Shown here piece by piece: positions 54,999 to 61,246 of a DNA stretch of 64,000 bases. A program made the position numbers and the translations under genes. This stretch comes from Chalara sp. BL73 (lineage: Eukaryota; Ascomycota; Leotiomycetes; Helotiales): positions 248,001 through 312,000 of the forward strand of contig CAKJVC010000097.1 of NCBI GenBank assembly GCA_918026815.1. The letters run 5' to 3'. The notes beneath the pieces are model-generated. The model did not search any database. It was not told the DNA's origin and saw only the letters and a list, made by a program, of their open reading frames with translations. Within the stretch, counting starts at the first letter, position 1. Every line of letters begins with the position of its first letter.

Positions 54999-55006
54999 GG
55001 CTGAAG
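54999..55006 (+). repeat. Left 8-bp target-site duplication of the hAT element
   Basis: GGCTGAAG stands directly before the left inverted end and is identical to the copy at 61239-61246. Confidence 0.93.
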
Positions 55007-55140
55007 TAGACTGCGAACTGGGGTCCCACGGGGCGGGTTTTCACCTACTTGACCCCACCCGTCGGGGTCCCACCCCATGGGTTGGGGTCTATCAAAAGCA
55101 CCCACCCCACCCCATGGGGTCTTGATGGGGTGCCAAGCAC
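55007..55140 (+). repeat. Left inverted end and subterminal GGGTC-rich repeats
   Basis: The end starts TAGACTGCG and has CCCACGGGGCGGG from 55025. It is followed by several copies of GGGGTC, GACCCC and CCCATGGG in both orientations, as seen in hAT subterminal transposase-binding regions. An apparent open frame over this stretch is a by-product of the repeats. Confidence 0.85.
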
Positions 55141-55351
55141 CCATTACATTTACACGTGACATTACAATAGTTGCTGTACAGTTAGAGAAGTTATACTAAT
55201 AAGTCTACTAATCAAAAGCTACGCGACATAAACGTATTAAAATTTTGGTTTGTGAATTTTATTATGTGCTTAGCGCCCTATCGCTAGCGTGTATACCTTT
55301 AATAACTCCATTGCTTAACCCATTTCCTTTGTATGAACTGCGTTTGATTCT

Positions 55352-55902
55352 TTAACACCGGCCTGGGTACTTGTAGCCCGTCATTCCCTCTCTCATTCTT
55401 TGAACCAAATGCATATCCTTTACTTGAATAGTAACTCTCTTAGCGTGGATTGCGGCAAGATTTGTGACTTTAAAGTAATATTAGTATAAATATTAGTATA
55501 ATGTATTTATATGAAATAACTTACGCTCGAACTCAGCTACCAAAGCAGATTCTGCGGCTTCTTGGAGACATTGTAAAGCACTAAGTTGAATGCGAAATGC
55601 GTGTCGAGACGTAATATCATACATTATTTCCCCTAACTAGTCGAGTAAATGGAGCTTTTGGGATTAAAAGCTCAGTGCTTTTTTGGTATCGTTTGATTTC
55701 TCTAAGTGCTTTGGCTACGTTTAAATGTTAGTTTTATACTAATTATTATATTAATCAACTTACTGCCAGGTTTCAATCGATATTTCTTCTGTGGTACAGC
55801 TTTTGCAGAGGTTTTAGCAGAGGTTTTGGCAGAGGTTTTGGCAGAGGTTTTGGCAGAGGGTTTGCGAGCAGATTTGGTAGCTATTTTCTTGGTACGTGCC
55901 AT
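55352..55902 (-). CDS. Histone H3-like protein in the hAT element, 147 aa with one frame correction
   Basis: Exons 55902-55764, 55714-55525 and 55467-55352 are spliced at GTAAGT donors. The start MARTKK matches the H3 tail start. The tail then becomes SAKT repeats (four in a row) followed by [13 protein letters not shown]. The core follows H3: [16 protein letters not shown] (alpha-N), PFTRLVREI (alpha-1), [19 protein letters not shown] (alpha-2) and [13 protein letters not shown] with [11 protein letters not shown] (alpha-3 and end). A run of four G (near 55629-55632) must be read as three for the frame to continue at VREI. The C-terminus runs about ten residues past the usual H3 end ([10 protein letters not shown]). 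The tail and alpha-2 differ clearly from canonical H3, so it is a variant, possibly able to enter nucleosomes; that is inference. Confidence 0.85.
55804..55863 (-). repeat. 12-bp tandem repeat encoding SAKT in the histone-like tail
   Basis: GCAGAGGTTTTG-type 12-bp units repeat in tandem on the plus strand and encode SAKT on the minus strand. The unit places a Lys every four residues, with Ser and Thr beside it, in a tail where H3 normally carries modified lysines. Confidence 0.85.
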
Positions 55903-56424
55903 TGTAACCTATTAAGATTAGAATAAATATTAGTATAATACAGAATAATATGTACCTGTGCAAAGTCGCAAATTATTTTCAGAAAAGGTGAAGGTGAATG
56001 TGAATATTGACACGTGAAATTGAAATTATAGCTTTGTGATTTCGACGAGAAGACTATAAAGAATTAGTATAATGATTAATATAAAAATAGAATATAAAAA
56101 AGATAAATATAATACATACTTGTGTATGGTGTAGTTGTTGGTAAATTTAATTGAAGGTTAAAAGAAGTCAGGTTTAAAAAAGTAGTTGGATGCCTTAAAA
56201 TCGAGGCATAAAAACGCGACTGCCTTATTTTTCAGGATAACGCGTACTTTTCCCTCATTCATTCTTTTTGCACCAACTTATTAAATCTGAACAAAGTCAA
56301 ACATCTATCGCAGTACGTGTTTTTGGTGTATTATATTAATCTTTATACTAATTTTTGAAGCTCTAGTTCTTGCGAGTTGAAATTTGCAAAATACGCCTAC
56401 TTTTCGGTTGCGTTACTTTCCAAT
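55903..56424. promoter_or_regulatory. Bidirectional spacer between histone-like gene and cargo gene
   Basis: The two genes are divergent and their start codons are 522 bases apart, so this segment must hold both promoters. It is AT-rich and also contains TTAGTATAA words (reverse of TATACTAAT) at about 55930 and 56065, perhaps in 5' leader introns. No defined promoter element is recognised. Confidence 0.5.
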
Positions 56425-57730
56425 ATGGCTTCACCTTTCGAAAAGCAACCTCCTCAGGTAATTTTTATTGAAATATTATATTAATCTGTATACTAATCGG
56501 TTTCAAGGATATCATTGTCATTTCTGATGATTCAGATCATGAATTTGATATGGATCTTGATTCCTCGCAGCAAATCGGTTCTTCCAATAAACGCAAGCGC
56601 AAATCTCCGGGCAGTTTTTTCTACCAATGTGCATACTGTTAAAGCTAGAAGAAGACTTGAAGCTATAAAAAGCAACAGTATTCAAAATCAGATCGAAAAA
56701 GCGAAAGCCGCAGATCAAGCAGCAATTACATACAGAAAAAAAGTACTCAAAAAGTCTGCCGAATTTGCACTCGCATCTGTTGCCGAGCAGAAGCGAATGA
56801 TTGAGCAGTCTGCTTTGCAAGTTAGAACAAAGCGGTTCGTTTAATTTTGATTATACTAATTTTTATACTAACCTGTATAGTGAACGAGATGGCAAAGATT
56901 GGAAATCTGTGGCAAAAGCTTTGGGTTATGGAGAAATTGGTGGCCTATATGCAATTGATGATGATGGAAATCCAGCATGGGAAGATATTGAGTATGAATC
57001 GGAAGACGAATACGAGTTTGAGCATATGTGGAGATTGAATGAAAAGCAAAACGGTGATAAAGCAGTTGTCGGCAAATCTGCTAAAGAGTTGAAAAATGAC
57101 GGGATTGCCAAGCATAAACGATCCATTTTAGTAAGTTTCAGATTAATATAATGATTCGTATAACGCTAATACAATTTCAGGATGCCAAAAAGCTTGAATT
57201 TAAGTTTTGGCAAAGAAAATGGCGCCGAAGCCGTCGATCTTTGTTCCGCAAAATCCGAAAGCTTGCTGCTGGTGGACAGGAATACTTGGAAAGAACAAGC
57301 TGTCCTTACATTTACAAGAAGTACAAATTTCTACTAATTTTTATACTAATCTGCTAACTGATATAGCAAATTCTATGCGTATAAAACTCCTGAAAGATAC
57401 TTTACTCAAGGAGAAAAAGCAATTTGGAAAAATCTTGCAGCATGGGCATACGGAAATGAAGAGTGGATCGATCTGCCGGGCCCTGCAAATTGGTGGCCAG
57501 CCGACGATAAGTTAAATGACACAGGATTCGGCTTCTCCGATTCGTTGACAGGCCATAGAGAAGCGTTTGATATGGTATATGCTACGGAAATTCCGGAAGA
57601 TGGATCATACGAACGTATTTTCCCCGCTTATAATGATTTGTTTTTGATGACAGACAATTCTTTAAGTCAAACAATCGTTAAAGCATTCTTTGGTTTACAA
57701 AGCAGCTTTCAAAAGCCGCGTAAGCTGTAA
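56425..57730 (+). CDS. hAT cargo protein with SUMO-interaction-like motif, 370 aa with one frame correction
   Basis: Exons 56425-56457, 56508-56834, 56881-57130, 57181-57320 and 57367-57730 join in phase, provided a run of six T at 56622-56627 is read as five. Near the N-terminus is DIIVISDDSD, a hydrophobic core followed by acidic residues like a SUMO-interaction motif, then KRKRK, a nuclear-localisation-like stretch. A helical, Lys- and Gln-rich segment (residues 65-120) follows, then two Trp-rich modules (KDWKSVAKALGYGEIGGLYA and NEEWIDLPGPANWWPADDK). The C-terminus reads LSQTIVKAFFGLQSSF. I do not recognise the family. A nuclear role alongside the transposase or histone is inference. Confidence 0.7.
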
Positions 57731-57967
57731 ATGTATATGTAGTTTTTAAGTATATACAACAAATGAAGCAAGGAACTTTAAGCAGATATATTCAATTTTA
57801 TACTAATCTTTATACTAATCATTATATTTTACATTAATTTTTGGAAGTTTAATTATAACCTTTAATATGTACAATTTTTTGGAAGTAGTAATTTAACTTG
57901 TGTTTAAATACTTGTTTTTTCTTTCCGATTTGATGCTTTTTTTTTTTACTTGCACACTTTTGTTGCT
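57731..57967. other. Spacer between cargo gene and transposase, with TATACTAAT copies
   Basis: Two adjacent copies of the TATACTAAT word at about 57799-57820 lie here, outside any coding intron, perhaps in the 3' leader of the cargo gene or a 5' leader intron of the transposase. Poly-T tracts follow. Confidence 0.4.
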
Positions 57968-60781
57968 ATGGAGTCAAGCAATTCGCAAGACTTTTTCTGA
58001 TCCTTTTAGCTCATTTGAGCCAAATACTTCTGACAATTTACTATTTTCGCAAATTGGTCCAAAAAACCTATATTTTCGATGGGAACTCGAATATCACGAT
58101 AAGTTTGTTGAATGGTGGTTAAGTACACAATGGGCAGTTCAAGCAGTTGCAAACCAATCAATTGATTTGGTAAAGCAATTAAATTGGAAATCTCAAAATC
58201 GAAAATCTATTGCTTGGAAACAATTCGATCAAGGAATACACCGGATCACCGGAGAGCCTAAAGTCATATGTCAAAACTGCAACAAGGTTCTCGCACATCC
58301 AAATACGCGGAATACCGGCACAAAAGCTTTGTCTGGTCATATAGCGTCTCGGCAATGCTTTGTTTATTCTAGCCAAAGTAATACAAGGCAGAAAAAAGTG
58401 GAAGACATGTTTCACGCTATCTCTGTAAGTAGATTAGTATAAATATTAGTATAATGTCTAATATTAATAGCAACCAATCTTTACGAAGCAAGCATTTCAC
58501 GACCAGGTTCTTGCAACTATTGTTTCACTTCGTACTTCTTTCCGCGCAGTCGAAAATCCTGAATGGAGAAAGCTAGCTGTTATGCAAAATCCAAATTTCG
58601 AACTTCCTTCTGCAACAACTATGAAGAATCGACTAATGGAACAATCAGTCAAACTTGAACAGAACATGCTTTCAAATGTTGTTCCTGGAAGCAAAATTGC
58701 AATTTCTCTTGATTGCTGGTCTAGTACAACAAGACTATCATTTATGGGTATAATAGCTCACTATATTGATAAGTCATGGGTTCTTTGTCAAGAATTAATA
58801 GGATTTGAAAGTTTAGTAAACGTTCATTCCGGAAATGCGCTTGCTCAAGTTGTCAATAACGTTTTTCAACAGCACAATCTTTTTGATCGTGTTGTTTCAA
58901 TTACAACTGATAATGCGAGTTCGAATACTACAATGGTTCTCGAAATCAACGGATACTTACAAGAAGCTTTGAAAGCTAATAGTATTCTAAAAAAGAAAGT
59001 CCAACACGTGCCGTGTTTATCGCATGTGATTCAGCTTAGTCTTCAAGCACTTTTGGGCTTTGTTCAATTGAGGCCTACTAACGACACATTTGTTCGGAAT
59101 TGGGTAGCAGAAAAAGAGCTGTCTGATCTTGAGAGAATCAAAGCTAGTGACAAACGTGGTATTCCATATATACTAGCAAAGGTATGTAACACGTGACTTT
59201 TATACTAATTTTTATACTAATCTTATATTAGATTCGAAAGCTTGCTATTCTTGTTAATTCCAGTGCACAGCGGAAACATCGATTTCAAAGAGTTCAACAA
59301 GAACAAATCAGAGATTCATCTTCTCCGAATGATCCAGTTCTTACATTGTTAATTGATGTATGCACTCGATGGGACTCAACAGTGCATATGATTCTTCGTG
59401 CATTGCGTCTTAAAGAGTCTATCAATCAATTTTGCAGTGCATACGATCCTGCTAAGCCTTTTTCTTTTTCTGCATTAGAATGGAAAAAACTTGGCTATTT
59501 GGCCGATTTGTTACGTCCTTTCAATTTTTTTACAACAACAATCGGCAAAACAACAAGCATAACATTGCCTTATGCTTTATCAATTTACGATGAATTGTTT
59601 GAACACTTGCAAGAATCTCGCCGAGTATTAACCAAAAAGTCTGTTGCTCAACTTTGGGTAAAAGATTTAATTGGTGCGATTAACGCTGCAGAAGCCAAGC
59701 TTGATACTTACTATAACAAAACATATAGTAGTCTTGGTAGTTTGTATGGCATCGGAGCAATTCTTGATCCAAAATCGAAGCTAAAATGCTTTGAAGAAGA
59801 TTACTGCTGGCTTAATTTCAAAACAGTTGATTGGGCCAAAGAATTTGAGCGTCAATTTCGGTCGTTATACGATACGGAATATAAAGAAAAGTCTACGAAT
59901 GCTGACCGACTTTCTCAAATTCGAGAAGTTAATCACGACCCTTTAGCATTGGCATTAAGTCGCAAGCGCTTTACTCGAGACATTCAGAACCCTTATCGCA
60001 AAGATGATGACTTTTCTCCTTCTGAAATTGATGAATGGCTGGCTATGAGTATGTTTACAATTCTACTTTTTATACTAATTTTTATACTAATCTTTGTGTT
60101 GTTTTTTTAGAGCCTGATAATCGATCACCGCTACTTGTTTGGAAATCGCTTGAAACACAGCTTCCTGGCTTATCAGCAATGGCTAGAGACTTACTTTGTA
60201 TCCCGATGGCCGGTGTTGGAGTAGAACGTGCTTTTAGTTTTGCACGTGATATATGCGGATATCGCCGTGGCCAGCTTCAACCGACAACTATTCGGTCGCT
60301 TCTTTTGGTTTATCATTCGCTCGTTGAACATTCACGAACACGTGAGCTTCAAAATCTACTATTTTCAACTATTAATATCCAGGATATGACACTTGAAGAT
60401 ATGGAAACGGAAATTAAAACGCGAGAAAATGATCTTGAAGTCCAACTTGATCAAATTGATCTTTGGGAAAATCATTACTATATTAGTGATGAAGAACCAG
60501 AAGGAAACGAAGAAGTTCGAACTCGTCGTGCTCAAGAACGCTGGGATTACAAGATTTCTAAATCTTTACGTCAATCAATTCATCAAAATCAGCCACTTTC
60601 GACTACTCAGTTTCAAAATACACTTAGGAATCGCCGCGAACCGTCAATTGAAACAACGAACTGGGAACTATCTAGTAATAGTAGTCAAGAGCTGCCTCGA
60701 CTTCCGACTCCTGGTATTGGTAATATTGTGCCGGATACTCCAATAGGCATTCACAGGTCAAAAAAGCAAAAAAAAAATTAG
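57968..60781 (+). CDS. hAT-family transposase with BED-like zinc finger
   Basis: Exons 57968-58424, 58471-59181, 59232-60048 and 60111-60781 join in phase. From the ATG at 57968 (MESSNSQDF) a TGA appears unless the run of five T at 57992-57996 is read as four, after which the frame stays open to 60781, about 884 aa. An alternative in-frame start upstream would give an odd hydrophobic N-terminus. A BED-like finger lies at CQNC to GHIASRQC. The catalytic core has SLDCWSS (first Asp) and TTDNASSN (second Asp), the CxxH line PCLSHVIQL, and the hAT C-terminal dimer region MAGVGVERAFSFARD holds the Glu. After that come 160 residues rich in Glu and Asp. The transposase looks active apart from the T run. 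Confidence 0.88.
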
Positions 60782-61099
60782 TTTTAGAATATTAGTGTTG
60801 TATTATTATAATTCACAATTTTTTCCACTCTATTACAATATGTTTAGATTTAACATTTGAAGTTTAATTTTTATACTAATTTTTATACTAATCAACCACT
60901 TTGCATTTCAAGTACTTTTGTAAAAACAAGTATACAAAATAGCCTTGTTTAACCTGTGTGCACATAGAAAAATCAATGCCAAAACTGGAAAGAATCATCT
61001 CGATACTAGAATACCTCGTATATTTTTAAAATTCCGCCAGTCCGCCCTACATTCTTGTAGAGGAGTTTGACTGTAGTTTCTATATTTAGTTAATCTTAT

Positions 61100-61238
61100 C
61101 GGGGCCCCATTGAGGTCCCGCGGGTTGGGGTCAAAATATACAACCCACCCCACGGGGGAAGCGAGCCTCGAAGACCCGACCCACGGGGTCCCATGGGTCG
61201 GGGGCCCCGGCCCGCCCCGTGGGTTTCTGCGCAGTCTA
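61100..61238 (-). repeat. Right inverted end and subterminal GGGTC-rich repeats
   Basis: Read inward from 61238 the end starts TAGACTGCG, then CCCACGGGGCGGG, then repeated GACCC, CCATGGG and GGGTC words. It mirrors the left end at 55007. Confidence 0.85.
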
Positions 61239-61246
61239 GGCTGAAG
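61239..61246 (+). repeat. Right 8-bp target-site duplication of the hAT element
   Basis: GGCTGAAG stands directly after the right inverted end (CGCAGTCTA) and is identical to the copy at 54999-55006. Confidence 0.93.

Follow-up and report, generated by a model that had tools for sequence, protein, structure and literature searches.

The window analyzed here, a stretch of 64,000 nucleotides from Chalara sp. BL73 (contig CAKJVC010000097.1), harbors a complete hAT transposon of 6,232 bp (55007–61238) with three spliced genes between its ends: a histone H3-like gene of three exons on the minus strand, a gene of five exons on the plus strand designated G2, and a transposase gene of four exons, also on the plus strand. 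On the sequence comparisons given below, the H3-like protein is a long-diverged H3 lineage distinct from the H3 of the host, and we suggest, with a probability of roughly 0.35, that it serves the element through nucleosomes that would resist H3K9-based silencing. Since the protein is far from the host H3, its gene has introns in the style of the element, a match to it is present at every full-length locus in the genome, and it has relatives in other genera, the histone appears to be kept for the transposon's own use.

The two ends of the element read TAGACTGCG inward, and an identical 8-bp target-site duplication (TSD), GGCTGAAG, lies on both flanks. The features that place the element among the hATs are the 8-bp TSDs, the terminal inverted repeats, and a dimerization domain in the transposase. 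We carried out the protein scans (Pfam) on the proteins of another copy of the element, L042, and not on the broken frames of the window. The 884-residue transposase of this copy matches Dimer_Tnp_hAT above the cutoff (E = 1.5e-9) and gives a hAT-like RNase-H match below it (E = 8.4e-4), and the 147-residue H3-like protein matches Histone with E = 8.7e-30. These splice models and scans confirm the content proposed by a sequence-only reading of the window (a transposase, a cargo protein, and an H3-type protein), as the sequence itself and all 19 complete copies checked confirm the matched ends and perfect 8-bp duplications; the boundaries given there are exact.

The closest known protein to the element H3 is a 143-residue "histone-fold-containing protein" from Bisporella sp. 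PMI_857, which has an open frame and is 90% identical; a relative from Tricladium varicosporioides is 62% identical and has records on three contigs, which a repeat could explain. Identities in the core and tail are 97/103 and 35/40 with the Bisporella protein, 72/101 and 16/41 with the Tricladium protein, and 60/93 and 16/41 with the host H3. The fold is thus kept better than the tail, a pattern that fits selection on a nucleosome-forming core. A model of the Bisporella homologue contains the αN, α1, α2, and α3 helices, with a predicted local distance difference test score (pLDDT) of 74 to 87 over residues 61 to 140 and of ≈60 in αN (canonical H3s are part of the alignment), and nucleosome H3 chains are the top matches among the best 50 of a fold search with this model. 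The tail of the element protein keeps the ARTK start and both K4 and K9, with T8 in place of R8; residue 8 is likewise T in Bisporella and is Q in Tricladium. Among positions that we take to be important in the nucleosome, R49, R69, R72, R83, H113, R116, D123, and L126 are kept, and R63, F84, L103, and D106 are changed. Loop 1 exceeds that of H3 by two residues. The tail is made up of 12-bp tandem repeats (55801–55872) that specify TSAK, their number being lower by one in the Bisporella protein.

An H3 tree that includes CenH3 and canonical H3, as the sequence-only reading had proposed, places the element protein in a clade of ten proteins apart from both. This tree contains 23 rows, 17 of them hand-picked from 192 listed H3-like proteins and the others being the element protein, the host H3, part of the host CenH3, human CENP-A, and two fragments taken from PDB alignments. 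Of the fused or doubled H3 records at the top of the profile search, only one half of P0005 was used. The element H3, Bisporella, and Tricladium proteins form a starred group (95/88) within a starred clade (100/97) that further comprises proteins from Stromatinia, Clarireedia, Pseudogymnoascus, three Talaromyces, and Paracoccidioides lutzii. The clade, whose support is descriptive because it was noticed before the tree was built, is marked in alignments by EF[ET][ML]T replacing LFEDT and by LV replacing LA in the last helix, and it stands apart from the host H3 (C159) and the host CenH3 (C66; best PDB match fission-yeast cnp1). Three groupings, chosen once the tree was known, were put to a tree-topology test with p values of the approximately unbiased type (p-AU). 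Placing the element and Bisporella proteins together with two canonical H3s, one of them that of the host, is rejected (p-AU 3.65e-63), and so is grouping the nearest three proteins alone with CenH3 (p-AU 9.75e-5); the union of the whole ten-protein clade with CenH3 has a p-AU of 0.068, and the best tree keeps them apart. The introns of the host H3 gene, as read, lie after K9 and near the C terminus, those of the element gene elsewhere. Recent capture of the host H3 is thus rejected by topology and by intron positions, in agreement with the claim of the sequence-only reading that the gene was not captured at this site; derivation from CenH3 appears less likely, the best tree being against it. 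The relatives in other genera suggest an H3 older than the present copies, and those in Bisporella and Tricladium would fit a long association of the histone with the element.

The nine introns of the element are 46 to 62 bp each, and eight of them contain, in either orientation, the motif TATACTAAT/C, which is doubled at a 12-bp spacing in five; the intron style said to be shared by the three genes is therefore real. The motif occurs at 21 places in the element (55192–60892), 13 intronic and eight between or outside genes, in both orientations, and is absent from the element's exons (4,214 bp) and from the remaining 57,768 bp of the window. Genome-wide, the doubled motif gives 303 matches with at most one mismatch versus 0 for a reversed control, and 98 of the 100 matches listed are inside loci of this element family, the other two being in another repeat-like sequence on C9. 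The motif runs opposite to the gene strand in two introns, evidence against its being just a branch site, and may be a binding site.

We searched the genome assembly (58.7 Mb, 199 contigs) with both ends of the element. There are 32 matches to the left 204 bp and 31 to the right 339 bp. The two ends are 6.1 to 6.3 kb apart at 26 loci, at one of which (C6) the match to the left end starts only at base 79. H3, G2, and transposase are each matched at all 26 full-length loci, with many of the matches broken by repeat-induced point mutation (RIP); further copies with an H3 match are thus present. Additional loci have both ends 14 to 16 kb apart (C62 and C114), one end (C73, C53, and C135), or short derivatives (C127 and C183). 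Twenty copies were fetched, 19 of them complete and one partial (L038). Every complete copy has a perfect 8-bp TSD, all of these different, and each end has the same 12 outermost bases in all 19. Thirteen have an identity of 99.29% or more with the window copy, which is itself counted among them; the other six have 254 to 720 substitutions each, 89 to 97% of them C>T or G>A and mostly at CpA and CpT. At the most diverged loci, 78 to 84% identical in the main alignments, 97 to 99% of the differences are of the RIP type, not counting alignments of 150 to 210 bases and one of 620 bases that are not RIP-dominated and look like chance pairings. We therefore reject the view that the diverged copies are separate old families. 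One element lineage, with the three genes already aboard, spread in this genome, and RIP hit part of its copies; since the divergence is mainly of this type, the three genes arrived together. The element was likely active recently. The claim that the histone has long traveled with the element is favored by the H3 matches at all 26 loci and the element-style introns, and the Bisporella and Tricladium relatives would fit it.

The flanks of the fetched copies, which lie on many contigs, have 37 to 52% G+C (45% in the window, versus 37% in the element family), and the raw base counts of the 19 TSDs show mild biases only. Both results leave the idea that insertion is steered to special chromatin without support. 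A 0.7-kb derivative with the element ends and none of the three genes is found at L064 (C127:1034500–1035340) and L065 (C183:16790–17625) with the TSD AGCATGAC; because the flanks are nearly the same, these are likely a single insertion held twice in the assembly. As a separate observation, the first 250 bp of the element (55007–55256) are nearly unchanged in the RIP-marked copies L045 to L050 (0, 3, 1, 1, 0, and 7 changes versus an average of ≈10 to 29 per 250 bp) despite holding 35 CpA/TpG sites, more than is usual.

In the window copy, homopolymer runs that differ in length by a single base break the H3, G2, and transposase frames alike. These breaks vary between the copies, and those that are shared lie in runs of four to seven. 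Among the 13 near-identical copies, H3 is open in three, G2 in seven, the transposase in three, and all three genes in one (L042), an exception among these copies in having 37 substitutions, only 14 of them RIP-type. Certain site pairs, such as 55630 and 57992, show all four combinations, and no tree fits them without recurrence or recombination. Homopolymer lengths that combine in this way suggest errors in the genome assembly, and assembly noise is the likely source of the frame breaks in the near-identical copies. In the six RIP-marked copies, H3 is without a stop in two (L045 and L047), one of which is without a start codon. Homopolymer length accounts for most differences between the near-identical copies, at 55630, 55679, 56615, 57413, 57992, 59458, and 59524, in a variant list that omits differences private to L042, and copy L039 has additional indels near 60590–60649.

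G2 encodes 370 residues with no Pfam match. Its label as possibly SUMO-binding has a sole basis in DIIVISDDSD near the N terminus, a stretch resembling a SUMO-interacting motif (SIM), and the protein further carries acidic and lysine-rich parts. A search restricted to proteins sharing exact words gives two relatives only, from Chlorociboria aeruginascens and T. varicosporioides and neither from Pyrenophora; relatives are absent from searches of viral_contigs and genome_contigs. In unmutated copies, G2 exon 3 and the Tricladium relative are 54 to 60% identical; G2 and the H3-like gene both have a relative in this species. The structure model of G2, from an alignment of two sequences only, is poor (mean pLDDT 45.6).

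The sequence-only reading knew of no described hAT element with an H3 histone. Two papers do describe such elements, both from Dothideomycetes, so that a claim of an undescribed kind is wrong. The hAT element of Pyrenophora tritici-repentis (Manning et al. 2013, PMC3538342) has a transposase, a central ORF without a known domain, and an H3-like gene between its ends, a layout matched here, although the two are likened by description only. Its short form retains the H3 gene and fuses the start of the central ORF with the transposase end, a structure that suggests the same gene order as in the present element. Common to both are hAT ends, the dimerization domain, and nearly identical copies; the Pyrenophora protein is stated to be neither H3 nor CenH3, and ESTs (expressed sequence tags) of its gene are reported. 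The present element differs in that it is 6.2 kb long, resides in another fungus, whose nearest protein relatives point to a leotiomycete, and has H3 relatives in other genera. The element of Pseudocercospora fijiensis (Dhillon et al. 2019, PMC6710886) resembles ours as a hAT with 8-bp TSDs, RIP, and internal H3-like sequences whose DNA identity with the H3 of its host is only 51 to 55%. It is 9.5 kb long with one or two intronless H3-like stretches, and all copies are reported as inactivated and no other domain is identified, whereas the element described here has introns and open copies. No third H3-carrying fungal hAT is found among the matches listed in open-licence PubMed Central, and the excerpted text of PMC8616336 holds nothing on a fungal hAT with H3. 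New here are the open copies, the element-style introns in all three genes, the relatives in other genera, and an H3 that is not that of the host.

How such a histone would serve the element can be proposed from its conserved fold and altered tail. The element H3 would pair with host H4 through the histone fold. The K9 methyltransferase needs R8; with this residue lost in the nearest three proteins, their nucleosomes would be poor substrates for the enzyme and poor in K9 methylation, and the element or its surroundings could stay open for transcription and transposition. G2, with its acidic and lysine-rich parts and SIM-like stretch, might be a partner or chaperone of this H3, which is a guess. 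Several results weigh against the proposal of silencing-resistant nucleosomes. RIP marks many copies, so the element is not free of all host defense. The insertion of a gene-less derivative indicates that movement does not require H3 in cis, and with H3 open in only three of the 13 near-identical copies, most may make no H3, unless the assembly has homopolymer errors. Three Talaromyces proteins and the Paracoccidioides protein keep ARK, that is, R8, which limits the K9 argument to the nearest three. The core retains 60 of 93 residues of the host H3 as well, and some positions that we presume to contact DNA are altered (R63 to P and F84 to I). A wider version, in which fungal hATs would own a dedicated H3 lineage older than the present copies, perhaps in leotiomycete, dothideomycete, and eurotiomycete elements, and would form silencing-proof nucleosomes helped by a second element protein, seems rather doubtful to us. 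Because a copy with all frames open exists in the genome, a direct test becomes possible of a selfish element that alters chromatin by supplying a histone.

The histone gene could instead be a passenger, caught long ago by transduplication and riding without helping the element. We regard this as somewhat unlikely, although both published accounts read transposon-borne H3 as the amplification of a captured gene (PMC3538342, PMC6710886), 10 of the 13 near-identical copies have a broken H3 frame, and a derivative lacking all three genes has inserted. A passenger is less expected to be kept at 26 of 26 full-length loci or to have a 90% identical Bisporella relative with an open frame and relatively more changes in the tail; moreover, the shared frame-breaking indels combine as assembly noise would, and the transposase is broken equally often (10/13) and G2 less often (6/13). 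The present element argues against the reading of a captured housekeeping gene. An unlikely variant of a useful histone has H3, perhaps with G2, package or bend the element or its excised DNA, or guide integration, independently of silencing. The constant company of the three genes at full-length loci and the acidic and lysine-rich parts of G2, as a histone partner might have, agree with it; the derivative inserted with element ends only, albeit with supply in trans possible, and the mild base biases of the TSDs do not.

Far less probable is a centromere mimic, in which a CenH3-derived histone would draw the element to centromeres or protect it there. The longer loop 1 is common to the element H3 and to CenH3/CENP-A (the host gene on C66, fission-yeast cnp1, and human CENP-A), and the topology test does not reject joining the ten-protein clade to CenH3; a longer loop 1 is, however, also present in a canonical Tribonema H3 (P0069) in the tree. 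Three CenH3s form their own starred group (99/99) without the element protein, which keeps ARTK and has EFE and LVQRM for LFED and LARRI, and the nearest three proteins are separated from CenH3 by the topology test. The spread of copies over many contigs, in flanks of varied G+C, likewise speaks against centromeric targeting. The features of the window copy are collected in Table 1.

Table 1. Features of the H3-carrying hAT element in window coordinates
Feature	Position	Strand	Basis
Left target-site duplication GGCTGAAG	54999..55006	.	sequence
Left terminal inverted repeat (TAGACTGCG...CGGGGCGGG)	55007..55037	+	sequence
H3-like exon 3, C-terminal part and stop	55352..55467	-	splice model
H3-like exon 2, histone fold; frame broken here by homopolymer length difference, open in other copies	55525..55714	-	splice model and copy comparison
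H3-like exon 1, N-terminal tail with TSAK repeats	55764..55902	-	splice model
G2 exon 1	56425..56457	+	splice model
G2 exon 2, SIM-like stretch at start; frame broken in window copy	56508..56834	+	splice model and copy comparison
G2 exon 3, acidic	56881..57130	+	splice model
G2 exon 4	57181..57320	+	splice model
G2 exon 5 and stop	57367..57730	+	splice model
hAT transposase exon 1; frame broken in window copy	57968..58424	+	splice model and copy comparison
hAT transposase exon 2	58471..59181	+	splice model
hAT transposase exon 3	59232..60048	+	splice model and Pfam
hAT transposase exon 4, dimerization domain and stop	60111..60781	+	splice model and Pfam
Right terminal inverted repeat	61211..61238	-	sequence
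Right target-site duplication GGCTGAAG	61239..61246	.	sequence

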